Assembly (NCBI GenBank): GCA_964023275.1
Contig: OZ029919.1
Span: forward strand, 662,001-726,000
Source of the DNA: Norana najaformis
Taxonomy: Eukaryota > Annelida > Clitellata > Crassiclitellata > Hormogastridae
DNA length: 64,000 nt
Direction of reading: 5' to 3'
Every line of letters starts with the position of its first letter. The first letter of the stretch is position 1. This document shows positions 1,883-28,400 of the stretch, in pieces. The position numbers and the translations under genes were made by a program. The notes below the pieces were generated by a model that was given only the letters and a program-made list of their open reading frames with translations, made no database searches and was not told the origin of the DNA.

Positions 1883-4800
1883 CAGCAGCGCATCCGAGCG
1901 ATCCATCCATATCGCCCAGAAGAGCAGCAGAAGGAAGAAGAGGAGCCACAGAAGCGCCACTGAAATCGTACCCAGGAGATTCCACTGAGAACGCGCCTCG
2001 GAATCCACGGACTTTTCCAGTTCTGGATCCGACTTCGTGATTGCAACACCACCTCCAAAGGTCGACAGGTGATTGCAGCAACAAACAATGTTGGAGTAAT
2101 TGGTACTCTCTGGATCTGCCTAAACCAACAGAGGTAACGCATATAGGCATTTATACAACGCCACTTTACAAATGTGTGGCACGGTGGTCTACCGGTAACG
2201 CGTTTGGTCGATGATCATGCGGTTGCGGGTTCGACTCCGTGTAACGATCCTGAGCAAGTTATTTGCACACACCGTGCCTCTGTCACCAAGCAGTATAATT
2301 TGTACTGGTGTAAGCTGGGAAGTAAACGACAAGTAAAGCGATGCATTGGCCCCGTTTCCTGGACCTTGGGATTGGTCCATTTCCGGCTCAAGGGCCTAAA
2401 GAAAAGGAAATGAGCACCTCCCCTGTGTGGCGACACTTGACTAGACAGACGTGCAACACGGAGGTCTATCGAGTGTGTGGTCTGTGATCTAACGGTTGCT
2501 GGCCCGAGCCTTACGTTTTACAACCTCAGACAATGGCGCTTAATAAATGCAAAAATAATAATAACTAAGAGTATAGGGTTAGGTCCGAGAAGGAAAACAA
2601 TTCGAGCTGAAACTTAAACTGCCAGTGAACTCACAAAGCAACCATCTTGCTTCCACCGTTTCTCCCGCTCGTTCCAGTATTGGCAGAATTTGTTGACAAC
2701 CATGATGGACACAACTATGCTGTGATTTGCTGTGTTATTGAAACGAACCACGAGACAGGTTTCGTTCTTGACGTCAGAAGTTAAGTGAGGATCAACTGCC
2801 CCGGCGTAACTCGGCGACTGCGAAGACGAACTGCAAGAGCAATGCTTAATGGCAAGATAAGGCAAGACACTGCAAGAACAACTTAATGGCAAGATAAGGC
2901 AAGACACTGCAAGAACAACTTAATGGCAAGATAAGGCAAGATACTGCAAGAACAACTTAATGGCAAGATAAGGCAAGATACTGCAAGAACAACTTAATGG
3001 CAAGATAAGGCAAGATACTGCAAGAACAACTTAATGGCAAGATAAGGCAGGATACTCCGAGCAACTTAATGGCAAGATGAGGGAAGATGTGTTAGGCAAT
3101 GCAAAGGCTTCCAATAAAAACTGAAAACACTCCTCTACTGCAAAACCTATTCTGATTGATCTTCTTCCCCTTATCTACCCTGCAGATCCATTTCCAAACA
3201 CCCACCCATCGTAGCCGTCTGAACACTAAGAACCAAGAACCAAGTTAAGAACCAAGTCCGGTTGTCAGAAGACCAGAGAAAGAGAAAGGGGAAAGGAGCT
3301 GTTAGTGTGGGTTGTGTTTAAGCGAAGAGAAATGGGAAGGAAGCGGATTCGATGGATCAGGGTGAGATTTCTTTAAAAGGTGAGACTTGGAACTTACTAA
3401 CTGGGGCAACAGACCACGTGTTTAAGGCTAATATTATACAGATTATCACACTTCAACCAAGTTACCTAAAATTGTAAGTCCACACAGGATTCGCAAGTCG
3501 AATTGTACCTTCGGCCAAGGCCTTCTTAGCTTTCTGCGCATTTCCCTTGAAGATGTCAAAGGTCACCGTTCCATTCAGTTCCTTGTCTGTACCGCTGCTG
3601 TTATCTTTCGATGCTTCTACGTACAGATAGAGGAACACTGTGCTGTGAGCCGGTTTCTGTACAATGGGAAGCACGAACGTCTGATTTGACGAGATGCTTA
3701 CGTTGACATAATCGTCTGGGTTCCACGGTTTCTTGCTCGGTAAAGTGAGGAATGCTTGGCGCTTCAATGTTGGAGGCACTTCGAGGGGTTGGCCGTCTTT
3801 TCGCAAAGTTATCTTAACGATGCCGGAGTCAAACGCATCGGATGTAGTCCAGAATGGATTCAGAGACCAGAATGCGAGTAACTGCAATTGCAGATAAGCC
3901 TTGATGCAACGTAATGTATCTTGCTTTTATCTAGCACCTTTTAAACACAATTCACAAGGGCGTTAAACATGGCTATTATAATTTATGCATTTGTTAAGCG
4001 CGACTATCTAATGACTTCGCATCAATCAATGGCGCAGAGGGAAGGAAATGTTCAAGGCCCCAGCACAGTAACCGTCTCAGAGGCGCAGGACTGAACCCAT
4101 ACTCTCCGCGTTACAAGCCGATCGCTCTAACCAATCAGCTACCATTTTCCACACGTCATCAAACAGGCCAACAAAGGTGCGACTTAAAATACGCTTTAAA
4201 TGTTCCTTGCCCCGTCTGGGGCAGAACGCATTTTTAGTGGCAGACTCTTCCAGAAGGACGGTCGCGGGCACAAGAAAGTAGTGTGCTTTCGCCATACGGA
4301 ATTGCTGGACCAACAGCTCCCAAGGGCTGACGAATGGATCTCTCATCGACCCCGATCACTAATGCTTCCTTCTGGAAGCGCCCCTGGAATCGATAATTAC
4401 ATGTCTTGAGGAGTGGGGCGTTAGATGACTACTAGGCACCAATGGCTGTGTTGGCCAAAATTCAAAATGACAGATTTATCACAATCGTATCGTAAAATCG
4501 TAAACTCGAGATTTCTACAGCGCTCAACAAAAGCTAAGTCGCGGGAATCAGCTTATTCACAGAGGCTCAGTCAAAACAAAATTGACAGGCGAGAAGGGTT
4601 CGGTTCCAGGTCAAGATCCAGGAGTCAGGCAGTCAGACGGTTACGGTGGGTGATGTTTGGAATTGAATCTGCAGGAAAGACAAGGGGGAGGAAGAGGAAT
4701 CAGGATAGGATCTGAAGAAAAGGAGTGTTTCAGTTTTGAGTGGAAGACCTGCACAGAAATTACAAGGGAAGAGGAAATGGTGAGTATTTATTTTATGTAT

Positions 4801-5098: not shown

Positions 5099-8000
5099 CT
5101 AAACAAATCAACAAACCAAATCTAATCTGTATGTATGTATGTGAACTTTTTTAAAGCGCATTTTAGGCGCTCCTTAATAGCGTTAATCTGAGCAATTATG
5201 AGTGAAGGACTTGATCAAGGTCCCCGGACAGTAACCGTCTCAGAGGAGGAGGCTCGAACCCGTGCTCTTCCAGTCACAAGCAGAGCGCTCTATCCAATCG
5301 GCTACTGTGCCCCAGTGCAAGAGAACAACGAGCAAAGTTCGGTCAGAGGTGGGTTAGCAAGGAGCGTCTCCGAGATGACTGTTAGGGTCGCTAGAAGAAG
5401 ACCCTAACAGCCACGTTCGCTGGATCTATATGTGGCTCACTGCTGGCCACCAGAGGCACAGCGTGGGTCCCATATGTGCCCAGCCCGAGTGGCTGTTTGG
5501 ATAGGCCTATGTAAATAACGCATTCTGTTTAAAGGAAAGCAGTCACTGTACAGTTTGAAGAGAGAACCTGCATCACTCTTACAAAACACAAACTCACCTG
5601 CACAAAACTCATTTTGGAATCACGAAACGCCGCATACAGCAAGTCAGACAGGCAGAACAGAAAGATTCTACAAGCAACACAAAATTCCTTTACAAAATCT
5701 TGCCAGACACGAAGCCATGAGACATTTCTAACCGAATCTAATCCAATCGTAAACGTAATCGTAAACTCGAGATGTCTACTTAAAAGCTAAGCGCAAAGCA
5801 CCAGCTCATTCACAAGCATTGCATTAAAATGGTGCTGAGAAATTGTTCAATATCATAGGAAATTATACTGCATTGTAAAGCAAAATATGGTAAATGAAGC
5901 AGACTGGTTTTTGAGAATTTGAATTCTAAACTAATCAAATGTAAAAAGTTCTATAGCGCCGTTATCACAATGTCCAAGGCATCAGTCGATGGTCGCTTCA
6001 AGTCAAAATCGCAATCCAAAATCACAATCCGTCGGAGAAGCCGGGTCGGATTTGGATAGATCAAAGAAACCGGAAGCCAGGCTACGGTAGGTAAGCAAGT
6101 TGAAAGAGATGTGTTTTTAGTTTAGATGTGAATGACATCAAAGAATTCTGACATCTGACGTAATAACACAGCTTCCGAACCTGCCAGTGTCCCTTAATAC
6201 AGTGGTTGAAATTTCGTTGCTGTAATATCCGATGCTTTCTTCGATCCTGACAAGAAGTTTCTGGAAGTCAAATCCAGTCAGAATTCGCGACGGTTCGTCT
6301 CTGCTGATCTGGGTCGTCAGTTTCTTGAGCGCTGTGACCGTCTGCTCAAGAATGATGACGTAGATAGGTTCTTTGGCTGGTGACGAACTCTTCATCCCAG
6401 CGATGTCCCCAAGCAAACTCAATGCCTCAGACCTGAACTGAACATTAGAGACATTGTCACGAATCAGAAAAACTCATAACACGAGGAAGGAAGGAGGAGG
6501 AAAAGGAGGAGAAGAAGAAGATGAAGAAGAAAAAGACCAGTCTCCCTTAAACCAACCTCAAAAGGCAACCATGGGTATGAAGCGACAGCGACTACCGACT
6601 ACATCTTCTTGGCCTCAGCATATGACAGCAGGTGACCAGTCCTCTATTCGCCGTCTAATCTTCCCACTGATAGTGTACAGTAAATGCACTCATTTCATAG
6701 CTGAGTTTACAACAGGAATAGCAATTCTGAAACACACGGTAACAATGTGAACCTCCAACTTTTCGATCGATAGTCCAGCACTTTATCCACTAAGACCAGC
6801 GTCAACCCTCTGTAACTTTAGAAAGCCAGTGTCAAAACAAAAAGCAGGTGTTCAAGGCCACTCCTGATGTATCCCACTTAAACTCAGATGGGGGTTGGCC
6901 ATGGCAGACGTGGACCTGGATCTACCCTTGATGGCAACCCAGCACCAATCTATTAATTGGGGCACCTTCTGCAGTTGTTTCAAGTCTTCGCCGCCCGTCA
7001 CGTTGCCAGTCTGAGAGTTGATCGACGCCAGGATGACGTTGAGGTGCCTCGCTGCTCCCACGTGATCCAGGTGCCACAGCATGGATGATGCCTCTCTCAG
7101 TCGGTCGAAGAAGAAAGCCAACGACCTCTGCTTCGAATGTACCTAACAACCCAACACCAAGTAAACTATCCTCTATACCACAAGTGAGACGCAGGGTAGG
7201 CGCTCAATTCCTTTTCTTTTTATGCCTTTTGGCCGGCGATGGACGAATCCCAAGGTCCTGGACACGAAGCCAGCGTATCGCAGGACCTGCCGTTTACTTC
7301 CCAGTTTAAGCCAGTACTAAATTATACTGCTTGGCTACAGCGGCATGGTGTGCGCAAACCACTTGTCGTTACACGGAGTCGAACCAGCAACCGCATGATC
7401 ATTCCCTCTTTAGAATCATGGCACCAAAATGTATCATATTCATATATCCATAATTGTGCTATAGGCCTACACAGGCTTATTCTCAAAATTACAAAAACAA
7501 AGTACAACAGATGATATTTAAGCATCTTTCCTTTGATTATCTGCCAACAGCGTAACTGACTTACAAAGTACTTTACATAACATTAAAATATATTAATGTT
7601 AATTCAACTGGTGCTAAAACATTACACTTTCATGTCAAATTAACACACTGCTCAAATGCTAAACTTGTGCAACAATTCACATAACACTCAAATCTTAAAC
7701 TTTCATGTTAAACTCATTTACTGCCTACATGCTAAAATTTTGCATTAATTCACATAATGCTTGAGGTTAAACTTACACAGTAATCAGATAACACTTAAAT
7801 GTTAAGCTTTCACATTAATTCACATAACTTACAGTAACTCTGAGCTCAATGGCCGCTTGAGTCCGCCACCCATCAATTGCAAACGCCGTCAAACAGACCA
7901 AGTCCTTGAGGGATTTCTCTCCAGCTGGTAGCATGAAGTTGCTTAAGCCCGGATTTGGACCGAGGTAGAGCAGTGTTCTGACTGTCAATGTACCACATGA

Positions 8001-11000
8001 TTTTACATGTACACGTGTACCCGAACATTTATATAGCGCCTTCAGGGAACCCAATGAAGGCACACTTTGCACTGATGCTCTAGTTCAGTAGGGAAAATGT
8101 TCATTCACAGACAAATGAAGCTCAAATACCAGGAAACACAGTTTAGCATCAACTGTTCCTTAAAGGTAACTTTTGCAGTAAATTTTCCAACATCTTTGCA
8201 CGGCCTAGATGAAAATTAGGTCACTTGCTTACTTAGGCTATTTGACTTCACTGTCAGAACCTCACTGTTTGTTGACTGAGTGGATCAACCCTTTCCAGTC
8301 TTTGATTTCTGATCCATCCAGCTATGCCTCAGTGCATCTGAGTAAATGTATATGTGCTTCTATAGTAACAGTATGGCCTCGACCGAGTGGTTCTCAAATG
8401 CCGCCAGCGCCACTGAGCTCCAGACCAGTAAGGATAAATGGTTGTCCTTGCAACCAAATTCATCATAAAGGTTTCCTAAAAGCTCTTAATCAACAATCCA
8501 AAATAGGCCTAAAAGTAACTTCTACTTTACATTACTATAATTTACTAGATCATCCAGAATCTAATGGTTGGTAGAATCTAAGAAATTTCTATCAAAAACA
8601 TGGACATTAAGTAACCTAAACACAAATCACTTATTATCAAAATAGACCTATTCTGAAACCCAAGACCATAAGCACAAGGCAACCGGTAATCAACCTAAAA
8701 GGTCTAAGAAATGCCCTAACCCAAAAGCTCTGTTATTACACCTTAAGGGCCACATGACCTTAAAGGTTGCATGATTTTAAGGGTCACATGACCTTAAGGG
8801 TCATGCTTGACCACAATCATTTTAACGAGTCTAGGAGATATTCCCCGGGTAATTTCCCCCCGGACATTTCCCCCGTCATCTCCCCCCATGGATTTCCCCC
8901 CCCCCCGGGTAAATACCCACCCAGACATTTCCCCCCAAGTCATATATTTTATATCAACAAACATCACAATTAGTTTTGTATAGGTCACAAATAAAAAGAA
9001 CAATATTTTTAAAATGAATTTAAGTGATACAAGGTAAAAAATAACAGTAAAATTAGTACTTGTGTTTATATCAAAGGTCTTTAGTGTTAAGTTTAAGTTC
9101 TGTTTATGAGCAATACACAGAGATAGTGTGTTCACAGACTAATGTTAAAAGCAACTGCTTTCAAGTAGTCTTTCTAGAAAACTGTTTACTCAGTTTGTTG
9201 ATATATTAAAAGTCTTTGCTAAATATTGTTTGTATTTCCACACTCAAACATCAAAGCACTAAAAACTCCGTATAGATAGAAATTGTTTACTTTTTGTGGA
9301 CATTTGGGGGGAAATATCCAGGTTTTTTATCCTATTGAAACGCCTGGGGGAGAAATCCAGGGGGAGATGACAGGGGGAAAAGTCCGGGGGGAAATGTCCA
9401 GGGGGATTTGTCCGGATCCCCATTTTAACATACTGAACAGAAAAACTCAGCAAAAGATATGATTCTCACACAGATACGGTGGGTTGCTTTTGCCGCATCT
9501 GTGTAGAACAAACTTGTAGGTAATCGGATGCTGGGCATCGGAAAAGTTCTCACAAAAGATGGAAAACATCGTCTCCAACTCGTTCCCCATCGAAGGACGA
9601 ATAACGCAGAGTCCGTTTGCTGGGGCATCGTTTACCGTGAAACTGTAGGAAGCGCCGTAATAGCCTGATTCTGCTGCTGTGTCATTTCCAGTCCCGAAAC
9701 GAATGTACCCGATTTTCGACCGAGAAGCTCTCTTGGCACGATTGTCAGAACCACTGCTGGGCTCTGCCGGATTGTCTGGGGACAAACCAACTTGTTCACT
9801 TGTGTCTGAGCCGAGTTCAATGCCAACGATGGCTCCTGAAGTTCGTTTCCTGTCAACTGAAGAAAATTCACTGGCATATAAAATGTCCTCAACACTGATA
9901 GATGTGACTTCAACGGCTCCTGAGGTATCTTCATCACCAAACGGTGAGAGTTCATCGGTACTTAAACCGTCATCAGACGTAACTTCAGAGGCTCCTGAAG
10001 TTTGTTGATACAGTACTGTAGATTTTTCACTTCCCCTTGAACTTTCCTCGTTGCCAACTGACGCAATCTGAGTGGTACCTGGAGATTGTATCTCGCCTGC
10101 TGTATAAAATTCACTGGTCAATGACCTCTTTTTAACTCTATTCGAAGTAACTTCAGTAGTTTCAGAGGTATCTAAATTGTGAACTGTAAAAACTTCACTG
10201 GAAACTGAGCTGTCTTTAATACCAACAAATATGAATTCACTCTCCACTGATACGAGCTCTTCTCCAGCTGTCAAAAATTCACTTGAAATGTCTTCACCGT
10301 CAGTGGTCGAAAACTGAGTGGCTCTTAAAGTATATTCCTCGCCCGTAGCAGACATTTCACTGGCAACCGAGTGCTGTCCAATGCTCACTGATTTAGTCCG
10401 AGTAGCCCCTGAGGTATATTCATCACCAGTGATAGCTGAACTCAGTTCAGGACCACGTGATGTGACTTCAGTAGCTGCTGAGAAACCTTTATCTGCAACA
10501 GCAGACCATTTACTGGTATCTCGGCTGTCTTCAGTGCCAACAGATGTAACTTCAGTGGCTCCCGAAGTATGTTTTTTGCCAAAAGTTGCTAACTCATTCC
10601 CATTTACACTGTGATCTATGACACCAGTCGTCACCTGAGTGGCTCCTGAAGTATGTTTCACAACTGTTATAGAAAATTTACTGGTATCTCGGCTGGCTTC
10701 AACAGCTTCAGTGGCTCCCGAAATATGTTTTCCGCCAAATGTTGCTAACTCACTTCCATTTACACTGCGCTCAATGACACCAGTCATAATTTGAGTGGCA
10801 CCTGAAGTATATTCCACGCCTGTTGTAGAAAATTTACTGGTACCTGGGCTGTCTTCAGTGCCAACAGATGTAACTTTGACGGATCCCGAAGTACGTTTAT
10901 TATCGCCCAATGGTAAAGCACTGGTACTTTGGCGGTGCTCTACGACCGGAGACGTAACATCACTGGTTTCAGCTGCAAGTTCACCTATGACTATCTCTGC

Positions 11001-14000
11001 CAATTCAATGTCACCCGAACTCCCCTCATCATCACCAACAGATGCAAAGTGAGTGACTCCTGCAGTGTCTTTCTCGCCTGCATTATAAACTTCAGTAGGA
11101 AATGGCCCGTGTTCAATCCTAACGGCTCCTGAGCTGTGTTTATCGACTGTTTCAGTTCGAGGTATCGGTAAGCTGTGTTCTGTTTTATCTCCAACCGCTG
11201 ACAATTTACTGGGACTTGAACTGTGCTCAATGCCATGTGATGTAACTCCAACAGATGCTGAAGTGAGCTCTTCTTTATGTATAACAGCTTCACTGGTAAC
11301 TGCTTCGGAGGTACTTGATCTGTCTTCAATGTCATGTGATGTAACTCCAACAGATGCTGAAGTGAGCTCTTCTTTATGTATAACAGCTTCACTGGTAACT
11401 GCTTCTGAGGCACTTGAACTATGCTCAATGCCATGTGATGTAACTCCAACAGATGCAGAAGTGAGCTTTTCTTTATGTATAACAGCTTCACTGGTAACAG
11501 CTTCTGAGATGCTTTTATCTCCAACTGTTGACAATTTACTGGGATTTGAACTGTGCTCAATGCCATGTGATGTAACTCCAACAGATGCTGAAGTTAGCTT
11601 TTCTTTATGTATAACAGCTTCACTGGTAACTGCTTCTGAGGCACTTGAACTATGCTCAATGCCATGTGATGTAACTCCAACAGATGCAGAAGTGAGCTTT
11701 TCTTTATGTATAACAGCTTCACTGGTAACAGCTTCTGAGATGCTTTTATCTCCAACTGTTGACAATTTACTGGGATTTGAACTGTGCTCAATGCCATGTG
11801 ATGTAACTCCAACAGATGCTGAAGTGAGCTTTTCTTTATGTATAACAGCTTCACTGGTAACAGCTTCTGAGATGCTTTTATCTCCAACTGTTGACAATTT
11901 ACTGGGATTTGAACTGTGCTCAATGCCATGTGATGTAACTCCAACAGATGCTGAAGTTAGCTTTTCTTTATGTATAACAGCTTCACTGGTAACTGCTTCT
12001 GAGATGCTTTTATCTCCAACTGTTGACAATTTACTGGGATTTGAACTGTGCTCAATGCCATGTGATGTAACTCCAACAGATGCTGAAGTGAGCTTTTCTT
12101 TATGTATAACAGCTTCACTGGTAACAGCTTCTGAGATGCTTTTATCTCCAACTGTTGACAATTTACTGGGATTTGAACTGTGCTTAATGCCATGTGATGT
12201 AACTCCAACAGATGCTGAAGTTAGCTTTTCTTTATGTATAACAGCTTCACTGGTAACTGCTTCTGAGGCACTTGAACTATGCTCAATGCCATGTGATGTA
12301 ACTCCAACAGATGCAGAAGTGAGCTTTTCTTTATGTATAACAGCTTCACTGGTAACTGCTTCTGAGGCACTTGAACTATGCTCAATGCCATGTGATGTAA
12401 CTCCAACAGATGCTGAAGTTAGCTCTTCTTTATGTATAACAGCTTCACTGGTAACTGCTTCTGAGGTACTTGATCTGTCTTCAATGTCATGTGATGTAAC
12501 TCCAACAGATGCTGAAGTGAGCTTTTCTTTATGTATAACAGCTTCACTGGTAACTGCTTCTGAGGTACTTGATCTGTCTTCAATGTCATGTGATGTAACT
12601 CCAACAGATGCTGAAGTGAGCTTTTCTTTATGTATAACAGCTTCACTGGTAACTGCTTTGGAGGTACTTGATCTGTCTTCAATGTCATGTGATGTAACTC
12701 CAACAGATGCTGAAGTGAGCTTTTCTTTATGAATAACAGCTTCACTGGTAACTGCTTCTGAGGTACTTGATCTGTCTTCAATGTCATGTGATGTAACTCC
12801 AACAGATGCTGAAGTGAGCTTTTCTTTATGTATAACAGCTTCACTGGTAACTGCTTCTGAGGTACTTGATCTGTCTTCAATGTCATGTGATGTAACTCCA
12901 ACAGATGCTGAAGTGAGCTTTTCTTTATGTATAACAGCTTCACTGGTAACTGCTTCGGAGGTACTTGATCTGTCTTCAATGTCATGTGATGTAACTCCAA
13001 CAGATGCTGAAGTGAGCTTTTCTTTATGTATAACAGCTTCACTGGTAACAGCTTCTGAGATGCTTTTATCTCCAATCGTTGACAATATACTGGGACTTGA
13101 ACTGTGTCCAACACCAACAGTTGTAACCTGAGTGGCTTCTGAAGTGTGTTTCTTCTCATCTGCTCTAGAAAGTTCACTGGCAGCTGAGCTGTGTCCCCTG
13201 CCAACAGACGTTACTTCAGTGGCTCCCGAGGTATGATCATCCCCAACTGTTGTCTCGATGGAACTTGAGCTTTGCTGTAGACCAGGCGACATAACTTCAG
13301 TAGCTACTGATGTGTTCTCATCTCCGACTGGCGATGTACCTCTGCCATCTGAACTATCTTTCTCGCTAATAGATGAAATTTGAGTGGATCCTAAAGTGTG
13401 CTTCGCGCCTGCTGTTGAAACTTCACTTGCAACCGAGCTTTCTTGAATGTGAAGAGACCTGAATTCAGTAGCTCCAGAGGTGGCTTTGTATGGAACGGTG
13501 GAAATGTCCCTGGTAACTGTGCTGTTTTCAATACCACTAGATGTGATTTCTTCAGCGGCTTTCAGGGTCTGTTTATGCCCAACTGTAAAAGTTTCAGTGG
13601 AAGTGAGTTTATCTGCAACAGATGACAGTTCAGTGGCACCCAAGCTGTGTTCTATGTCAGGTGACATCACTTCAGTAGCAGCTGAGGTAAGTTCATCTTT
13701 ACCTTTAGAAATTCCAATGGGGACTGAACCGAGCTCAATGTCAACAGATGTAACTTCAGTGGCTCCCGCTGAATGTTTGATGCCTGAGCTGTGTTCGATG
13801 CCACGAGATGTTCTTTCAGTGATGTAACTTGTGTACTGATCTCTGTCTGTAGTTTCTCCACCTGCACTTGAACTACCTTCATAGCTAAAAGATGTAATTT
13901 GAGCACCTCTTGAAGTTTGTTTTTTGCTTGCAGTTGAAAATTCAATGGCAATTGTGCTACCCTCCATGCCAGCAGATCTGAATTCTGTGGCACCTGTACT

Positions 14001-17000
14001 TTCTACATACTGAACTGTAGAAATTTCCCTAGTAACTGACTGGTGCTCAATACCACTTGATGTAATTTCTTTGGTGGTTCCTGAGGTTTCTTTATGTTCA
14101 ACTGTAAAAGTTTCAGCGGCATCTGTGCGATGCTCTGTGTCCACAGACGCAGCCTCAGTGGCTGCTGAGGTGAGTTTATCCGCAACAGATGATAATCCAG
14201 AGACAAGGGAACTGTGGTCTATGCCGAGTGACGTAACTGTGATGGCTGCTGAGGTGAGTTCATCTCCAGTCGTAAGAATTTCACTGGCAACTGGGCTGCC
14301 TTCAATGCCAACAGTCGTAGCGACTCCTAAAGTGTACTTCTCGCTTGTTGTAGAAAATTCACTGGCAGCCGAGCTGTCTTCAATACCAACAGAGCTAACT
14401 TCAATGGCTCCTGACGTTTGCTTTATGCCAAATGTTGCTAACCCACTGACAGTTGAACTTTTGTCTCGGCCAAGAGATGTAACTTCACTGGCTACCGAGA
14501 TGTGTTTATCGCTGACTGTAGGAAAATCACTAGCATCTGAGCTCTGCTGTATGCTAACAGATGTACTACCTTCAATGGAGTCAGTACCAGTAGCTTCACT
14601 TCCGGGAGTTTTTAAATCACTTGATACATTTATGGCCATGCTACCCGTGATGATTTCAGTAGCAATGATACTGACAGAATTGTATTCAGTGGCAGTAGTT
14701 CTTATCCCAGTACCAGTAAATTCAGTGATATTTACCTGAAATTCACTTGAAGACATTGAAAGCTCAGCGGTGTTTTGTTCACTCATTGTGGCAATTTTAG
14801 TTTCACCCTTGGTAGTGTAATATTCACGTAATGTAGTTTTAAAGTCAGCCGTCAAAGTAGTTCTGTCTTCCACTCTGGTGCTTTCAAATTCACTTGAAGA
14901 AATTTGTCGTTCAGTCCCAGTAGTTAATTCGGTTGAAATCGTACTAAGTTCAATCCCAGTGGCATTTAGCTGGACTTTAAATTCAGTATCAGAGTAAGTA
15001 TGCAAGGCTTCGGTGCCAGCAGTATGTTCTTCAAGTACAGTAGTTCTGAACTCCGTACCTGTTACCTCAAGACCACTTTCTGTGGCGGTTATATAACTTG
15101 AAATACTTCTAGACTCTGTGGAAGTAGGTTTTATGTCAGTTTCAATAGTTTCAATACTGGCAGCAGTGTACTGCTCACCTGAGGTAGACGAACCTAAAGT
15201 GTCAGTATGAGTAACATCAAACTCACTAAAAGCTGTTCTCACTTCAGTACCACTAGCTTTCATTTCACGCGAAGTAGTTTCAATTTCGATAACCATAGCA
15301 GTCATATCAGCTAAAGTACGAGATCTAAACTCAGTGTTTGTTACATTTAATTGAGGTGATGTAGCTTCAACTTCAGTGCTAGTGATATTGGATTCGCTTG
15401 ACATAATACTGAACTCGGTGCCTGTAGCATTAACGTGAGGTAATGTATCAGTAACATCTTTTTCACTTGATGTAGTCAATAGGTCAATTTCGGTAACATT
15501 TATTTCATGTGAAATAGTTTCTATTTCAGTGCTCGTAACAATAAATTCGCTTGACATAGTTCTGTCCTCAGTGCCTGTAGCATTAACGTGAGGTAATGTA
15601 TCACTAACATCTTTTTCACTTGATGTAGTCAATAGGTCAATTTCGGTAACATTTATTTCATGTGAAATAGTTTCTATTTCAGCGCTCGTAACAATAAATT
15701 CGCTTGACATAGTTCTATCCTCAGTGCCTGTAGCATTAACGTGAGGTAATGTATCAGTAACATCTTTTTCACTTGATTAACGTGAGGTAATGTATCAGTA
15801 ACATCTTTTTCACTTGATGTAGTCAATAGGTCAATTTCGGTAACATTTATTTCATGTGAAATAGTTTCTATTTCAGCGCTCGTAACAATAAATTCGCTTG
15901 ACATAGTTCTATCCTCAGTGCCTGTAGCATTAACGTGAGGTAATGTATCAGTAACATCTTTTTCACTTGATGTAGTCAATAGGTCAATTTCGGTAACATT
16001 TATTTCATGTGAAATAGTTTCTATTTCAGCACTCGTAACAATAAATTCGCTTGACATAGTTCTATCCTCAGTGCCTGTAGCATTAACGTGAGGTAATGTA
16101 TCAGTAACATCTTTTTCACTTGATGTAGTCAATAGGTCAATTTCGGTAACATTTATTTCATGTGAAATAGTTTCTATTTCAGCGCTCGTAACAATAAATT
16201 CGCTTGACATAGTTCTATCCTCAGTGCCTGTAGCATTAACGTGAGGTAATGTATCAGTAACATCTTTTTCACTTGATGTAGTCAATAGGTCAATTTCAGT
16301 AACATTTATTTCATGTGAAATAGTTTCTATTTCAGCGCTCGTAACAATAAATTCGCTTGACATAGTTCTATCCTCAGTGCCTGTAGCATTAACGTGAGGT
16401 AATGTATCAGTAACATCTTTTTCACTTGATGTAGTCAATAGGTCAATTTCGGTAACATTTATTTCATGTGAAATAGTTTCTATTTCAGCGCTCGTAACAA
16501 TAAATTCGCTTGACATAGTTCTATCCTCAGTGCCTGTAGCATTCACTTCAGATAAAGTACCAGTAACACCCAGTTCATTTGATGTAGTTGTCAACTCAAC
16601 GTCAGTAGCATATACTTCAATTGAAGTAGTTTCAGCTTCACTGTGAGTAACAATACTTTCGCTTGACATAGTTGCAAACACAGTTCCGGTAAAATTTACT
16701 TTCAGTGGAGTAGTTTCAACCTCAGTGCCAGTGACACCAGAAGCAGTGGAAAACTCTACTTCAGTAGCAGTTATTTCAAGTGAAGAAGTTTCAACCTCAG
16801 TACCAGTGACACCGGAAGTGGTGGAAAACTCTACTTCAGTAGCATTTATTTCAAGTGAAGAAGTTTCAACCTCAGTACCAGTGACACCAGAAGCAGTGGA
16901 AAACTCTACTTCAGTAGCATCTATTTCAAGTGAAGAAGTTTCAACCTCAGTACCAGTGACACCAGAAGCAGTGGAAAACTCTATTTCAGTAGCATTTATT

Positions 17001-20000
17001 CCAAGTGAAGAAGTTTCAACCTCAGTACCAGTGACACCCGAAGCAGTGGAAAACTCTACTTCAGTAGCAGTTATTTCAAGTGAAGAAGTTTCAACCTCAG
17101 TGCCAGTGACACCGGAAATGGTGGAAAACTCTACTTCAGTAGCATTTATTTCAAGTGAAGAAGTTTCAACCTCAGTGCCAGTGACACCAGAAGCAGTGGA
17201 AAACTCTACTTCAGTAGCATTTATTCCAAGTGAAGAAGTTTCAACCTCAGTACCAGTAACACCGGAAATGGTGGAAAACTCTACTTCAGTAGCAGTTATT
17301 TCAAATGAAGAAGTTTCAACCTGAGTGCCAGTGACACCAGAAGCAGTGGAAAACTCTACTTCAGTAGCATTTATTCCAAGTGAAGAAGTTTCAACCTCAG
17401 TGCCAGTAACACCGGAAATGGTGGCAAACTCTACTTCAGTAGCATTTATTTCAAGTGAATAAGTTTCAACCTCAGTTCCAGTAACACCGGAAGTGGTAGA
17501 AAACTCTACTTCAGTAGCAGTTATTTCAAGTGAAGAAGTTTCAACCTCAGTGCCAGTAACACCGGAAATGGTGGAAAACTCTACTTCAGTAGCAGTTATT
17601 TCAAGTGAAGAAGTTTCAACCTCAGTGCCAGTGACACCAGAAGCAGTGGAAAACTCTACTTCAGTAGCAGTTATTTCAAGTGAAGAAGTTTCAACCTCAG
17701 TACCAGTGACACCGGAAGTGGTGGAAAACTCTACTTCAGTAGCATTTATTTCAAGTGAAGAAGTTTCAACCTCAGTACCAGTGACACCAGAAGCAGTGGA
17801 AAACTCTACTTCAGTAGCATCTATTTCAAGTGAAGAAGTTTCAACCTCAGTACCAGTGACACCAGAAGCAGTGGAAAACTCTATTTCAGTAGCATTTATT
17901 CCAAGTGAAGAAGTTTCAACCTCAGTACCAGTGACACCCGAAGCAGTGGAAAACTCTACTTCAGTAGCATTTATTTCAAGTGAAGAAGTTTCAACCTCAG
18001 TACCAGTGACACCGGAAATGGTGGAAAACTCAACTTCAGTAGCATTTATTTCAAGTGAAGAAGTTTCAACCTCAGTACCAGTGACACCAGAAGCAGTGGA
18101 AAACTCTACCTCAGTAGCATTTATTTCAAGTGAAGAAGTTTCAACCTCAGTACCAGTAACACCGGAAATGGTGGAAAACTCAACTTCAGTAGCAGTTATT
18201 TCAAGTGAAGAAGTTTCAACCTCAGTGCCAGTGACACCGAAAATGGTGGAAAACTCTACTTCAGTAGCATTTATTTCAAGTGAAGAAGTTTCAACCTCAG
18301 TGCCAGTGACACCAGAAGCAGTGGAAAACTCTACTTCAGTAGCATCTATTTCAAGTGAAGAAGTTTCAACCTCAGTACCAGTAACACCGGAAATGGTGGA
18401 AAACTCTACTTCAGTAGCATTTATTTCAAGTGAAGAAGTTTCAACCTCAGTACCAGTAACACCAGAAGCAGTGGCAAACTCTACTTCAGTAGCATTTATT
18501 CCAAGTGAAGAAATTTCAACCTCAGTACCAGTGACACCAGAAGCAGTGGAAAACTCTACTTCAGTAGCAGTTATTTCAAATGAAGAAGTTTCAACCTGAG
18601 TGCCAGTTACACCAGAAGCAGTGGCAAACTCTACTTCAGTAGCATCTATTTCAAGTGAAGAAGTTTCAACCTCAGTACCAGTAACACCGGAAATGGTGGA
18701 AAACTCTACTTCAGTAGCATTTATTTCAAGTGAAGAAGTTTCAACCTCAGTACCAGTGACACCCGAAGCAGTGGAAAACTCTACCTCAGTAGCAGTTATT
18801 TCAAGTGAAGAAGTTTCAACCTCAGTACCAGTAACACCGGAAATGGTGGAAAACTCTACTTCAGTCGCATTTATTTCAAGTGAAGAAGTTTCAACCTCAG
18901 TGCCAGTGACACCAGAAGCAGTGGAAAACTCTACTTCAGTAGCATTTATTCCAAGTGAAGAAGTTTCAACCTCAGTACCAGTGACACCAGAAGCAGTGGA
19001 AAACTCTACCTCAGTAGCATCTATTTCAAGTGAAGAAGTTTCAACCTCAGTACCAGTAACACCGGAAATGGTGGAAAACTCTACTTCAGTAGCATTTATT
19101 TCAAGTGAAGAAGTTTCAACCTCAGTACCAGTGACACCAGAAGCAGTGGAAAACTCTACTTCAGTAGCATCTATTTCAAGTGAAGAAGTTTCAACCTCAG
19201 TACCAGTAACACCGGAAATGGTGGAAAACTCTACTTCAGTAGCATTTATTTCAAGTGAAGAAGTTTCAACCTCAGTACCAGTAACACCAGAAGCAGTGGC
19301 AAACTCTACTTCAGTAGCATTTATTCCAAGTGAAGAAGTTTCAACCTCAGTACCAGTGACACCAGAAGCAGTGGAAAACTCTACTTCAGTAGCAGTTATT
19401 TCAAATGAAGAAGTTTCAACCTGAGTGCCAGCTACACCAGAAGCAGTGGCAAACTCTACTTCAGTAGCATCTATTTCAAGTGAAGAAGTTTCAACCTCAG
19501 TACCAGTAACACCGGAAATGGTGGAAAACTCTACTTCAGTAGCAGTTATTTCAAGTGAAGAAGTTTCCACCTCAGTGCCAGTAACACCGGAAATGGTGGA
19601 AAACTCTACTTCAGTAGCAGTTATTTCAAGTGAAGAAGTTTCCACCTCAGTACCAGTGACACCAGAAGCAGTGGCAAACTCTACATCAGTAGCATTTATT
19701 CCAAGTGAAGAAGTTTCAACCTCAGTACCAGTAACACCAGAAGCAGTGGCAAACTCTACTTCAGTAGCATTTATTCCAAGTGAAGAAGTTTCAACCTCAG
19801 TACCAGTGACACCAGAAGCAGTGGAAAACTCTACTTCAGTAGCAGTTATTTCAAATGAAGAAGTTTCAACCTGAGTGCCAGTTACACCAGAAGCAGTGGC
19901 AAACTCTACTTCAGTAGCAGTTATTTCAAGTGAAGAAGTTTCAACCTCAGTACCAGTGACACCCGAAGCAGTGGCAAACTCTACTTCAGTAGCATTTATT

Positions 20001-22377
20001 TCAAGTGAAGAAGTTTCAACCTCAGTACCAATGACACCCGAAGCAGTGGAAAACTCTACTTCAGTAGCATTTATTTCAAGTGAAGAAGTTTCAACCTCAG
20101 TACCAGTGACACCCGAAGCAGTGGAAAACTCTACTTCAGTAGCATTTATTTCAAGTGAAGAAGTTTCAACCTCAGTACCAGTGACACCCGAAGCAGTGGA
20201 AAACTCTACTTCAGTAGCATTTATTTCAAGTGAAGAAGTTTCAAACTCAGCACCAGTAGCATTGAATTCGCTTGAGGTAGGGCTAAATTCCATTTTAGTA
20301 ACATTTACTTCAGGCGTGATTTCAACTTCAGTGCCAGTAGCACTAAATTCACTTGAAGCAGTGCTAAACTCCATTTTAGTAACATTTACTTCAGGCGTGA
20401 TTTCAACTTCAGTGCCAGTAGCACTAAATTCACTTGAAGTAGTGCTAAACTCCATTTTAGTAACATTTACTTCAGGCGTGATTTCAACTTCAGTGCCAGT
20501 AGCACTAAATTCACTTGAAGCAGTGCTAAACTCCATTTTCGTAACATTTACTTCAGGCGTGATTTCAACTTCAGTGCCAGTAGCACTAAATTCACTTGAA
20601 GTAGTGCTAAACTCCATTTTAGTAACATTTACTTCAGGCGTGATTTCAACTTCAGTGCCATTAGCACTAAATTCCCTTGAAGCAGTGCTAAACTCCATTT
20701 TAGTAACATTTACATCAGGTGTAATTTCAATTTCAGTGCCAGTAACACGAAATTTACTTGAAGTAGTGTGCAATTCAATTTCATTAGTTCTTACGCCTTG
20801 TTGAGAAGTTCCAACCTCACTGCCAGTGACATGAACTTCAGTAGCAGCAGTTTTAAAGTGGCTGCCAATAGTACTTACTTCAAGTGCAGTAGCATCAACT
20901 TCAGTGTCAGTTGCTCTAAAATTGCTTGAAGATGTTCTAAACTCAAGATCAGTGGCATTTATTTCACGCAAAGTAGTTTTTGTTTCACCACCGGTAGCAT
21001 CAAATTCAGTAGTAGCAGCTTTAACAATTCTTGGCGTGGTTATGAATGGAATGACAGTGGCTTCACTTACACCAGCAGTTTTTACACTTGAAGTTGTTTT
21101 TCTTTCATCACCAGTTCCATGAAATTCACCTGTAACTGTTGTAACGTAACGGGATGTGTTCTTTTCTGACCCAGTGCTGTCACTGCCCGGAATTCCGGTC
21201 GTTACTGCGGTTGATGTGGGATGTACCGGTAAAGTACCAGTGGGTGACGTAGACGCTAAAAGATCCAATAACATACAATGGTCAACAATTCAGTCTACTC
21301 TTTTTATCCGACTGAATGGCGCCTCACCACAGTCAATAATCTTAGCTGGAATAGTTATATAGTCTACTCTAAATAAAATGTATATGTACACGTTTTTCTG
21401 TAACGACCGCATGGCCTCGACCATGCTCATTTTCAATGAATATATCGAGTGAGATCCTTCACCACCACTGCCCGTTTGAATCGCCATCATCATCGTCACC
21501 ACCACCACCAACACCACTGCCACCATCACCACCACCACCATAGGTATATATGTAACTGGACATTGATACAGAGCTTCACTGTCACAATAAAACGAGATCT
21601 TACTTGTTAGGCCGATTGTGTACTGCTCAGATGGCATCGCAAACTGGAAGACGTCTTCCTTGATGTGCAGGACAGGATTGTTAAGACCAAACTCAGTATC
21701 CGATCTCGAAATAAATCTGATGTTGTAACTTCCGTTCTGTAACCTCCATCGAAACAACAGACCGCGACAGTCGATGCACGTCGCCGTTAGCACCAAGTGG
21801 AATGACGGATTCAACTTGCTAGCACAGTTCACGAGGCACTTAACCCCCATTTTCTGTGGCACCAACCCTCGGCGAAACAGTCGCCCGGAGTCGGCGACCG
21901 ATGTGGCAACAATCCGGATCCAGGTGGAGTTTGACACGGAAGGAATCTCCTCGAAATTGTGATCCGGCTGAGCCGTGAACTGCAAGAAACAAATCCACAG
22001 ACTAGATGTCATCTGTTTCCAACAGCAGGTTTAGGTAAAGCCTTAACAATGTATATTAATGACACATTCCAAGCTTGTGCTGTGTAGTATACAGCACTTT
22101 GAGGATACTTCCATCAACATCAGGTCTACAGGGAATGTGAACAGAGGATGGTTTTTAGCCCAGATGACCTGGAAAACCGAGGATGGTTCTGGAACATGGT
22201 TCAGTCTGTGAAAAAACCCTTAAACGATGAAAGAACACTGGAATTATCACTTTCTTCCATCAAAAAATGCCTGAAAACTCACTATTTCTCAGCGGCTTTC
22301 AAACAACTGGATATCTATCTGACTACCCACACCTCAGGTTCGCACTATGTGTGACCTTGCATGCATTAAAAATCTTC

Positions 22378-22410
<33 letters not shown>

Positions 22411-25400
22411 TTAAAAAATAATGATAAATAAAAGAATAATAGGATATTAACCAGTTATCAAGAAGATTAACTAATTATCCAAGAAGATCAAAAAGGTGAT
22501 CAAATAATCAGACTTGCATGAACTTTAAAGCACACAACTCCCTCTGTGTAAATGTTGACATTAGACAATGCAGCCAAAACCAAGACAGTATGTTTTCAAG
22601 ACGCACATACTCACAGTTGCCATGATCCTGTACAGCCCTGGAGTATAGTTGCTTGCAATCATAACCGCAATCCGGGTATGAGATGGAATGCGACGAACTT
22701 CCCCCAATGTTCTGTTAACTTCGTTCATCTTTGTGGCCATCCAAATCACAGTCATTGGGTTAATTATTGGGCACAAAAACGATGGAATCACCTCAATGAT
22801 GAAATTTCTTGTAGATGGATATTCACCCGGTTTATCTCTCGTCCCAATTCCAGGAATATGAAGACTAACTGGATGGCACACTGCAAATGAACAACATAAT
22901 GTAAAAGGGTGTTTATTTTACAGCACCCCTTGAAGGATAATCTCAAGCATTACCAACAAGAACACAAAATCCACAATTGGCCAAGAGGATTTTCAGTCTT
23001 TGACAGAAGAATTACGAATGAAAAAGCCCAGAAAATCTTGTAATGTAACAAAATACATGCAGTGTAAGCTGAAGAAAAGGTGCTTTTGAGATGATGCAAG
23101 TGTAAGTCTCCTAAATATCTTAGCACCACACAAAAGCTGCGTCAGGGAGACCAGCTAATTACCGGCGCTATATCAATTCAAGTCCGCAAGAACTAGGTTG
23201 TTTGGTCAGTTTCGATGCCAGGTCAGAAGTGGGCATCACCCCACTCAGAAGTTTCCCTGGCAACAACAATATACTTGGCGTTACAGAAATTTAAAAGTAA
23301 TGGAGAAAAAGGCGCAGTTACCTTCGCATGCTGTGCCATTGGTGCTGACCGTATAGCCAGGCCTGCAGGTACACAGGAAGCTGCCTGGAGTGTTGGTACA
23401 TTTGTGACATTTGGTGATGTTCAAACACTCGTTAACATCTGAAAACAAACAAAACGTTAGTACGTGTACGGCGTCAACCTAAACCATAAACTCTGGCACT
23501 CTTGGGAGGTCAACTCCTATTCACAACAATACACAACGACAAACACATCAGTAACAACAAAAACAATATGACAGTTATATTCTGTGTTGCAGTTACTTTC
23601 CTCTACCATTCCCAAGTCCATTCCCAAAGCCCATACGGGATCTATATTCTCATATGGGACCCGTCAAACTTTAATGGGCATGCTGGCAGGGAATGCAAAG
23701 GAAGCCAGTATGTAAGAAAGATGGGTTAACATTAGCTAAAGATTTACTAAGATTGCTGCTAGCATGGTCCATACACATTTACATTTAATAATTCTGAAAA
23801 ATGCTCCTGAGCGGTGACTGCAAGAAAAACCACAGACAGCAACTGTCGGCTTCACCTATACAGATGTCGTCCGGCTGGCTTTTCACGAATCCCGGTTCAC
23901 AGGAACAGACGAAGCTGCCAGGGACATTCGCGCAATTCACACAGAATGGAAGGCTCCTACATTCGTCGATATCTGAACAAAATCAATGCAAATATGGTCA
24001 ACTATATCTTCAAATGTGTTGCAGAAAGGAGGTCCAAACGCCAATGCCTCACTACTATCATCCGCTGATGGAAACTTTTTGGCAGGCATATGGCTTTTTT
24101 GCAAGGCCAAAGAATGGCAAGAGAAGAGGACAGAGAAGGCCAAATTGGAGCAACCCGAACACACAAAGTTCTCATCCATTTTTGTTGGGCATGTAGCTGG
24201 CCACCCGTGGTACAGTGTGCGCCAGCTATGGACCCACTGAACTGCCTAAGTAGTGAGGTTTACACCAAACCCAGAGACATACATTTCCCAGTCATTTTCC
24301 TACGTACTCATAATATTTCCAATTTAACTCATGTCTCAGTGAACTGACTTTCTGGCACTTGACCTGACCAAGGCTTTGTTTCATAAACCATCGATTGATT
24401 CCTCGTACATTAGACACTGGAGCTACAGAAGCTTCATTCATCATCATCATGATCCATGGGCCGAGAGCCCGTAGGTGTCCACTGCATGCATTGTCACTTG
24501 TCTCCACAGTTCCCGATCTTGTGCTGTTCTTATCAAGGCGTGCAAGTCTTGCTTACACCAATCCCTTATATCATCTGTCCACTCCCTGTTAGGTCTTCCT
24601 CGTCTCCCATTTCCGTCCATAATTCCCATCATCACGCTTTTTATTTTTCTACTGTCATCCATCCTGCATATATGTCCAAACAAGCGTAATTTCCTTCTCA
24701 TTATTACTTGTGAAGCTTCATTCAGATATACTATATGTTAAAATGGTACATCACGTAAGCGACTGAAAATGTAGAGAAAAAGCAGAAGTAGAGACAAGAC
24801 GAATTCAAAACCTATGCAATCTCTGTTCTCTGTCATCTCGTAGCCTGGCTCGCATTTGAGAGTGAAGCTCCCCAGAGTGTTTTCACACGAGTAACAAGAG
24901 AAGTCAGCCTCAGCACATTCGTCGATATCTACGAAAATCACCAAACAAGAATCATAATCGTAAACTCGAAATTTCTAAAACACTACTTAAAAGCTAAGCG
25001 CAGGGCACCAGCTTATTCACGAGCACTGCATCAAGTCAGTGGGGTTGTCCAAAGATGCCACGTGAAGAGCCAAGTCCGGTTGCCAGAAGACCAGCGACAG
25101 AGAATGGGAGAGGAGCTGTTAGGGAGGGTTGTGTTTAAGAAAGTTTCAGCAAGTTTCAACAAACAGTATGATGTGCTTGCATCAGCAACTGATGATACGG
25201 AAAAAATGCTGAGAAAAACAGGACGTTTTCATTTAAAAAGGTCTTTGCACTAAATATTTACATTAAATATTATTCATAAATATGATTATTAGTTATTATC
25301 TTACACTGAATTTTTAATAGGCAATCTAATATGTTGCAATGAAACTAAACACAAAATCAGAGCAGGTGTGAGAATTCACCTTGACAGGAGCCTTCACTGG

Positions 25401-28400
25401 TCAGCGTAAAGCCGTCATCGCAGTAGCATTTGAAACTCCCTCTTGTGTTGATGCACATCTGGCAAGTCCTGTCAGTCATCTGACACTCATTCACCTCTAA
25501 AAATTACAACATGGCAATGTAATGTAAATTGATGCATGTATCCAAATAGTACATATTTATGTATCCAACAATGGCATGTATCCAAACACAAATATATGTA
25601 TGCATCTAAATACGTATGATAGGCATCATGTCATGAACATGGGAGCCGATTGGTTTGAGTGCTTGCCTTGCAGAGTAGAGTGTGCAGGTTCAAGACTCAC
25701 AGAGACAGTTGCTGTGTTGGATCTTGAGGAAGTCCTTCACATACTATCGCTCAGTGCCATCAACTGATGCTTTGTTATTAAATAGTTAACACCTAATAAA
25801 TGCAGAAATAGGAGTACGGCATCCAGCCGTTCGTTAGAATGAGAAAACCAACCGTAGCATTGAGATCCCTCGGCGTTCAAAGCAAATCCGACGTCACAGA
25901 CGCAACTGTAGCTTCCAAGATTGTTGATGCATTCAGAAACGCAGAAGTTTTCACCAGCACATTCGTCAACATCTGAAATCCACAAAACCATAAGCTTAAG
26001 ATTTCTACAGCACCCAACGATAGCCAAGTCACGGGAACCAGCTTATTCACAGGTGCTCAGTCTAAACAAAATCAACAGGCAGGAAGGGTTCAGTTCCAGG
26101 TCAAGAACAAAGAGTCAGGCAGACAGACAGTCAGACAGATACGGTGAATGGTGTTTGGAATTGTAATGTATATATGCAAAACAATGAGTATTTCTATTTT
26201 CTGTGATTGTCTAGTCACTCTAGCGATTAACATACATGAAAGTCAGCTCAATTTCCTGCAAGAACAGAAAAATACTTCAAGATATCTCTTCCATCAACGC
26301 CCCCTGGTGAACTTGGCCATAAAATGAGTAGAGTAATCATAAGCTGTCAACGGGAAGATCAGCCAACAAGGGAGAGGAATGGCCAGTGAACAAGCCGTTT
26401 CCGCAACTTAGCTATCTTTGGATGCTATAGAAATCTCGAGTTTATTATTATGATTACAAGGAAACTAATGTGATACTGACATGTGAAATTACCAAGTGAG
26501 ATTGATATGTGAAATTTACACATGAAATTGATATGTGACAATGATGCCAGACAGTAACATAAAACAGTGCACGAAAGACACACTGGAAAAGACTGGTCAC
26601 CTTTGCAACCACCGTTAGGAGAATATGCAAATCCTGGATGGCACTGACAGATGAAACTACCGACAGAGTTCTGACAAGTGGTGCAACCTATCGGCAGTTG
26701 GCATTCATCGACATCTACAACATTAGTAACCATTAGATAGTCGCGCTTCATAAATGCAAAAATAATAATAATAATCTAAACATTAGAAACACATTAACAT
26801 AATTTGCATGCTGACCCAATTACGATCCATTTCTGAACTCTGCTCAATCCTAGTTCTTGTTTTCTGAGAAAAAAGTCAAAAAGGAACATAATTTTTTTAG
26901 TTGCTGGATCTAAATTTTGGAACTGCCTCCCTTCGTCTGTTCGTTTTGCTCAGTCGCTTCTGTCATTTCGCACTCAACTTAAAACTTACCTTTTTCAAAT
27001 TGCTTATCCACCGTAGGCTGCCTCTCTGTCGTGTGGACTGACCTTCTGGATATCGACCTGATTGTGGCTTGGCTTCGGTGCACCATCGGTTGACGCCTTG
27101 AAACCAGCACATCACGTGTTACTGCCTAATAGTAATTAATAACAATTTACCTGCTGACCCAATTTAGAACCATCTCTGGATAACTCTGCTCAATTTTCTG
27201 AGGAAACAGTCAAAACTAACTGAAACTTGTAAACGACCCACAGTTACCTTCGCACTGGTGCTTTTCTTTGCTCAACTGAAATCCAACGTCACATACACAA
27301 CTTAATGCTTCAGACTTTGGATTTTTCATGCACTCGTTCAAACAGTTTCCGTTGAAGACGGTACAATCTACAAAATCATTCTCTACATGTGACAGCTGTC
27401 TGCAAAAGAAAAGGGCAATACACGTGACCAAATACACATGAACCTTCATATAAAAGAAATCATTACAGAAATAAATTCTGATATGATCCGGTTTGTTACA
27501 CAGATCCCATCACAGTTCTGCTTTAGACCACTATATAATGCAGGCGCATTGTCTGATATGTCTTGTCTTGTCTTCTCTTCAACCCTTCTCGAGCCGAGGA
27601 TTGGCTGCACCACGGACAATTTTGTGCCATCTGCTTCTGTCCCTTGTCAACTGAAATAACTGGTCGAACGATAATCAGTCCGTGACTTGATGTTATTGAT
27701 CCATGTCATCTTGGGTCTTCCCCGAGCTCGGGATCCAGACATTGCTCCTTGGATTACAACACAACAATGTATGGCTAGCATAGATAGCCTTATACAGAGG
27801 TTCCAGTATACTTACAGAAGTGAGTGATAGTTTGGGTCTGACACCTAACAGGGAAGTTAGATGCCATAAAATTTCTGCTCCACTTGCAAACCCCAGCTAT
27901 AAAATAAGTACTCTGAGTGTACACCAATTAGACAGCAAAGGGGTGTGGCCCACTGTCACAAATTATCTAATGAAGTCACTTAATGGCTGCTTTTTGGTCT
28001 TACCTCAAGACATTGCTCTACCTCACAGTGTACATGCATTGAAGATGATGATAATGATGATGGCGAAAATCATATTCTACCTGATTCCTCTTCTTTCCCT
28101 TATCTATCCTGCAGATCCAATTCCAAACACCACCCACTGTAGCCGTCTCACTGTCTGACTCTTGGATCTTGACCTGGAATCGAACCCTTCTTGTCTATCG
28201 ATTTTATTTTGACTGAGCACCTGTGAATAAGCTGGTTCCCGCTTTCATTGGGCACTGTAAAAATCTCAAGCTTACGATTACGATTACTAATTTAACAACT
28301 GAAAGAATTAAACTTAGTAGCTCGCAAATAAAAACGAGTACATAGCTCACCGCGAATGTTACAGACTGATGAAGAGCTGGTTCCTTTGCCTGCGGAAATC

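Follow-up and report, generated by a model that had tools for sequence, protein, structure and literature searches.

The window analysed here is a stretch of 64,000 nucleotides from the annelid Norana najaformis (C7:662001-726000), whose genome comprises 608 Mb in 17 contigs. It carries a polycystin-1 family gene in which one exon holds a tract of about 3,870 residues, placed between two parts of a REJ domain. All features of this gene lie on the minus strand. The expanded exon (9470..21255), which consists of the tract and the second REJ part, has a length of 11,786 bp (2 modulo 3) and is in phase 1 at both ends, with the acceptor TTTTAG|CG and the donor CTGT|GTGAG. An earlier note on this DNA had given exactly this exon position; the phases and the splice sites were found as well.

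Domain architecture of the receptor gene

The exon preceding the expanded exon (21604..21979; acceptor placed by eye) encodes the first REJ part. It matched columns 203-289 of the Pfam REJ profile with 25.7 bits, just above the cut-off of 25, and ends in HIKEDVFQFAMPSEQYTIGLT (..SEQYTIGLT), the stretch ..EQYTIGLT resembling a strand F, at a phase-1 GTAAG donor at 21604. A phase-1 intron of 348 bp (21256..21603) separates it from the expanded exon. The second REJ part (9483..9653; ..ASYSFTVNDAPANGLCVIRP..) matched columns 304-360 with 43.9 bits when scanned as a piece, and it was also recovered with 41 bits in a genome-wide REJ search. When the second reading frame of the expanded exon was scanned whole (2,102 aa), no Pfam match was obtained at E 0.1, REJ included, so the REJ end is visible only as a separate piece or in the genome search. 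The next REJ exon (7833..7981; ..RTLLYLGPNPGLSNFMLPAGEKSLKDLVCL..) has limits set by eye. After the REJ parts had been joined by hand, with the tract omitted except for a few residues at each end, a single match over columns 203-385 was obtained with 84.5 bits. For comparison, a hand-joined paralogue lacking a tract gave 75.9 bits and a paralogue contiguous in the genome 91.3 bits. The proposal in the earlier note that the tract is inserted inside the REJ module is thus supported.

Upstream of the REJ domain, five EGF_CA exons scored over the Pfam cut-off (23284-23478, 24741-24974, 25360-25503, 25740-26042 and 26428-26775). Downstream of it, two hand-joined exons (2040..2734, limits approximate) encode a GPS motif (PF01825, 35.8 bits) whose cleavage site reads HL|S (CCCNHLSTFGG). 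A 37-bp minisatellite of 7 copies lies just upstream of the first GPS exon (window 2830-3088). Hand-joined exons in the downstream flank matched the polycystin domain (PF20519, 45.6 bits) and PKD_channel (PF08016, 37.8 bits). Judged by its REJ, GPS, polycystin domain and channel, the gene is a polycystin-1 family receptor-channel, and the receptor class named in the earlier note agrees with the EGF, GPS, polycystin-domain and PKD-channel matches. REJ appears to be strongly expanded in this genome, with 39 Pfam REJ matches on many contigs, several of which share one gene.

Reading frame, repeats and coding character of the tract

The expanded exon holds two minus-strand frames, the first of 1,859 and the second of 2,102 codons. 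They are offset by an exact 41-bp tandem duplication (15735..15818, second copy starting at 15775) inside an array of 51-residue units. The first stop of frame 1 (15674..15676) follows about 100 bases beyond the duplication and would be the end of the polypeptide as assembled. Seven occurrences of the 41-bp unit were counted on the window's minus strand, with one direct tandem, and the exon minus 41 bp has a length of 3 x 3,915. The single open frame of about 3,800 residues described earlier was therefore not confirmed; the note had overlooked the duplication, and its claim of one tract is true of the ancestral exon, not of the assembled sequence.

Because the duplication is exact and the sequence is intact on both sides, it is either very recent, in which case this copy is a null allele, or it arose as an error of assembly. 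If it is real and common, the gene could be a recent loss-of-function allele or a young pseudogene, and the tract would be functionless. The frame break and the stop behind it speak for this explanation, and an error could be called only from reads. However, 2,102 codons stay open past the break, the second REJ part still scores 43.9 bits, and the GPS and channel exons match Pfam, so any loss must be very recent. False duplication in a near-identical array is, moreover, a known type of assembly error. We regard a real and common loss of function of this kind as unlikely.

The composition was computed on 3,867 residues, excluding the misread stretch and the REJ end. Serine and threonine together account for 33.4% of the residues, glutamate and aspartate for 16.9%, lysine and arginine for 4.7% and proline for 1.3%; cysteine is absent. 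The description of the tract as mucin-like therefore holds in part: the 33.4% Ser+Thr and the lack of Cys agree with it, while the 1.3% Pro and the 17% Glu+Asp do not. Likewise, two features of proline-, threonine- and serine-rich (PTS) domains are present, a high Ser+Thr content and tandem repeats in one large, although frame-broken, exon, but the tract is not rich in proline. The N-terminal half has 47 sequons for N-glycosylation, where shuffling gave 17.8 and never more than 28; for the C-terminal half the corresponding figures are 14, 9.8 and 18. The richness in NxT noted earlier thus applies to the N-terminal half, while the C-terminal half is within the shuffle range; the count of 62 for the whole tract includes one artefact created by abutting the two halves. 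No Pfam match to mucin families was found in either whole frame, NCBIfam gave no match, and Rfam gave none on the window. A Pfam scan of the whole of frame 1 returned three families, PSF2_N with 27.9 bits (cut-off 27) and two below their cut-offs. These were taken as sums over repeats and discarded, as no stretch passes alone.

The tract is composed of arrays and non-array segments, and all unit sizes reported before (27, 25, 51 and 33/44 residues) were recovered. An N-terminal non-array segment (20771..21253) is followed by a 27-residue array of 7.1 copies (20190..20768) and by a 25-residue array of 47.5 copies (16694..20257), in which 32 of 47 units are distinct. The 51-residue array (15343..16588) consists of rows of 5.3 and 2.8 copies. 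Next come a non-array segment of 700 stop-free codons (13077..15176), with a heptad periodicity that is weaker in its first 200 residues, the 33/44-residue array region (11214..13059) and a C-terminal non-array segment (9741..11193), again with heptad periodicity.

The 700 non-array codons contain no stop, where 41 were expected; the lowest count in 200 shuffles was 27, and the same stretch has 14-82 stops in its five remaining frames. The ratio of nonsynonymous to synonymous differences (pN/pS) was 0.31-0.61 in four arrays, calculated over all pairs of 47, 7, 5 and 8 units, and these pairs are not independent; values below 1 among the repeat copies of one genome say nothing on rates between species. 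On these sequence statistics the tract looks coding. Autocorrelation at lags 7, 14 or 28 was present in all four non-array segments tested (51 lags), with z values up to 9.4 and of 4-5 in the two shorter segments. The power spectrum of Ser/Thr peaked at period 7 in one and at 3.5 in the other of two non-array segments tested. The tract looks like one heptad family with members of different ages.

A genome search with a 700-residue piece of the tract gave three matches, all in the expanded exon itself. With a 500-residue piece 16 matches were obtained, six in the same exon and 10 elsewhere (C15, C16, C6, C5 and C9). The latter had at most 30% identity, and the best of them (E 5.6e-30) falls in a stretch with 59 stops; they are read as shared composition. 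For these two pieces (700 and 500 of 3,867 residues) the genome contains no close second copy. Orthologues were sought with a hand-built model, for which the 7,992 best word-sharing candidates were scored, none longer than about 3,200 aa; only one distant sea-urchin protein was found. A second search with the channel region and part of the tract as length filler left 0 of 3,396 candidates scored, again with none above about 3,200 aa. A full-length orthologue bearing the tract would escape searches limited to this size.

These results bear on the possibility that the exon grew neutrally as a minisatellite and that the tract is filler, tolerated but with no function in itself. The arrays of near-identical units would fit such growth, as would the failure to find an orthologue among candidates up to about 3,200 aa or a close copy of the two pieces searched. 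Neutral filler would not be expected, however, to show pN/pS below 1 in four arrays, and the older stop-free segments keep Ser/Thr at a period of 7 or 3.5. Neutral growth is regarded as unlikely.

Probable place of the tract in the REJ fold and proposed function

Of the 39 REJ matches of the genome, 20 were inspected to see where the first REJ exon ends; at several loci there were multiple candidates, and the choice was made by eye. A phase-1 GT directly followed a strand-like stretch in 19 of the 20 loci, the exception being L037. The stretch mostly has the pattern Y-x-hydrophobic-x-hydrophobic, with L024 and L030 lacking the Tyr. Given this consistency, the intron position is most likely family-wide, with the tract occupying the 5' part of the next exon. 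In a paralogue at C1:13.67 Mb the homologous exon has only 213 bp, is in phase 1 at both ends and encodes a loop of about 10 residues (VTFSNRVNRN). Short loops were also found in the neighbouring copy at C1:13.61 Mb, in paralogues at C1:45.05 and C6:2.31 Mb, where both strands of the fold are in one frame, and in the sea urchin Diadema at the same place of polycystin-1-like protein 2. At the other loci of the 20, the next REJ exon was sought by a profile search of 1.5-kb flanks, extended by 5-10 kb for seven loci, and was not found, so these loci may carry similar tracts. A 731-aa open frame in a paralogue had suggested that some 510 aa are inserted at the equivalent position there; this was rejected, as a 1.5-kb intron lies between the two exons.

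The position in the family also bears on whether the repeat exon is part of another, mucin-like gene that lies within the receptor gene or next to it. The composition of the tract, which is unlike that of a folded ectodomain, is the argument for two genes. The splice sites are phase-matched on both sides, though, at a conserved family position, and REJ shares an open frame with the C-terminal half of the tract. A separate gene was therefore rejected as barely credible.

In the first ~420 residues of human REJ, fibronectin type III (FNIII)-like sandwiches were described, of which two are stable and two others probably unstable (PMC3677617). On the FNIII pattern, strands F and G would correspond to YTIGLT and ASYSFTVN, respectively. 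A single-sequence query of the PDB gave no match at E 1, and a profile search at E 10 gave 20 matches with a best E of 0.0013; all but one, a different protein, were antibody heavy chains or Fabs. The strands look consecutive in one sandwich under either naming, so that the tract would be a loop whose ends lie at one place. It is probably a tethered loop within one REJ beta-sandwich and not the very long stalk that the earlier note had envisaged, since the paralogues and the sea-urchin polycystin have a loop of about 10 residues here between apparently consecutive beta-strands.

Optional use of the tract would be another way around the frame break. Splicing from the upstream REJ exon straight to the end of the expanded exon, at an acceptor near 9775, 9856 or 10057, would yield a short-loop receptor and bypass the break. 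Phase-1 AG sites at these three positions (minus strand) score 12, 13 and 12, close to the 13 of the exon's own acceptor. In the 550 bases scanned, however, the rate for the whole exon predicts 0.86 phase-1 sites of at least 12 and 0.25 of at least 13, against three and one seen, so that chance may account for them, and a long tract that was never used would not remain open under constraint. We consider optional use of the tract possible but on the whole unlikely to be the explanation.

The explanation we favour, with a probability of roughly two in three, is that a short REJ exon of a polycystin-1 family gene grew in frame and under constraint into a tethered glycan loop. Starting from an exon like that of the paralogue (213 bp), repeated tandem duplication of a Ser/Thr/Glu unit built on heptads, kept in frame and constrained, would have lengthened its 5' end, for a growth of the exon of about 55-fold. 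The tract would exit and re-enter one REJ beta-sandwich subdomain between two consecutive strands, and is predicted to be a Cys-free, disordered loop, probably O-glycosylated and in its N-terminal half also N-glycosylated. At 0.25 nm per residue, a pitch taken from the available text of PMC10687090, its contour would be about 0.97 micrometre. As both ends are tethered at one place, the closed loop would reach at most half of this. Such a glycan brush would most likely space surfaces, mucus or matrix from the REJ-GPS-channel module, or couple them to it.

Several points weigh against this explanation. The reading frame is broken as assembled, the donor of the expanded exon is weak (score 3 of 6), and the exon model is a prediction from the genome sequence. 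The internal phase-1 acceptor-like sites could serve to skip the tract. The pN/pS values were calculated from all pairs of related copies and carry no error bars. Pfam scans of two rough assemblies of the exons did not detect PLAT. Finally, no more than two of the 20 examined loci (C1:13.61 and 13.67 Mb) yielded the REJ exon that follows, the strand assignment is based on sequence pattern, and the matches to antibody heavy-chain variable domains would name the strands E and F instead of F and G.

The tract contains a single R-X-K/R-R (furin-like) motif, RAKR (9729..9740), the start of which lies 29 residues ahead of ASYSF; of 1,000 shuffled tracts, 51 had one or more motifs of this type at any position. 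It is conceivable, but improbable, that the loop can be opened. A cut at RAKR would free an arm of about 1 micrometre on one strand, and a pull on this arm would unzip the REJ sandwich beside GPS and channel. To our knowledge no such built-in mechanical release is known from any polycystin. According to PMC1934368, human PKD1 needs its REJ domain for cleavage at the GPS. Expression of the tract would mean that REJ tolerates an insertion of about 3,900 residues, and would point to a permissive loop in a domain that is of clinical importance but structurally poorly known. An expressed tract would also equip a channel complex, believed to be force-sensing, with a glycan brush, a natural experiment on how such a brush alters polycystin gating.

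Further features were seen in the introns of the gene and around it. An intronic piece (24450-24737, minus strand) resembles by eye the end of a non-long-terminal-repeat reverse transcriptase. Two open frames of the window have no Pfam match: one of 569 aa (48694-50403, minus strand) with a zinc-finger-like start, perhaps, by eye, a mobile element, and one of 315 aa (53257-54204, plus strand) that is partly of low complexity. A minisatellite at C7 ~640.4-641.9 kb (L004) is open in more than one frame (ALSSDALSSAS.., LCPLMLCPRPL..). Farther downstream lies a Shaker-type potassium channel gene (C7 ~628.6-630.6 kb, L005). Among the best 120 of 5,916 listed matches, Capitella (79%) and Helobdella (78%), at a query coverage of 71-73%, are with the closest named relatives; within the same 120, the best E-value belonged to a tree-shrew protein (66%), and another protein reached 85%. 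To call the channel annelid-like is a guess from these sequences.

Comparison with known systems

The mucins MUC16 and MUC5B also carry their Ser/Thr-rich tandem repeats in one giant exon. The tract described here differs from them in its 1.3% Pro, in the lack of a Pfam mucin match and in its host, a receptor-channel. Within the polycystin-1 family, C. elegans LOV-1 and mouse PKD1L3 have Ser/Thr-rich extracellular regions, which are not known to lie inside REJ. The words mucin and serine are absent from the main text, as available, of one LOV-1 paper (PMC9829181). Human PKD1L3 is without REJ according to the accessible part of PMC1934368.

Another comparison is offered by ADGRG4/GPR112, a receptor with a GAIN domain and a mucin-like tract of about 2,000 residues (approximately 279-2244), for which shear sensing was proposed by the authors (PMC10687090, in the text available). 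ADGRG4 is, however, a G-protein-coupled receptor, and its tract forms a linear stalk between two domains, whereas here the tract interrupts one domain.

The sea-urchin REJ proteins provide close parallels, as far as they are covered by the accessible text of PMC1934368. SpREJ9 shares a Ser-rich, low-complexity character, but its regions are short (Ser173-284 and Ser528-694), consist of 76% Ser, lie near the N-terminus and are not stated there to be inside REJ. In SpREJ7, a member of the polycystin-1 family, the cDNA encodes 428 non-REJ residues between two REJ portions of 247 and 284 residues. This insertion is not described in that text as repetitive or Ser/Thr-rich; the one found here has about 3,870 residues and consists largely of tandem repeats. 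No description of a REJ domain with a mucin-like insert was found in the part of the open-licence PMC literature that was covered. Insertion into REJ and Ser-rich REJ proteins were thus already known; the gene described here is an extreme variant, new, as far as this literature shows, in its size and in the combination of the two.

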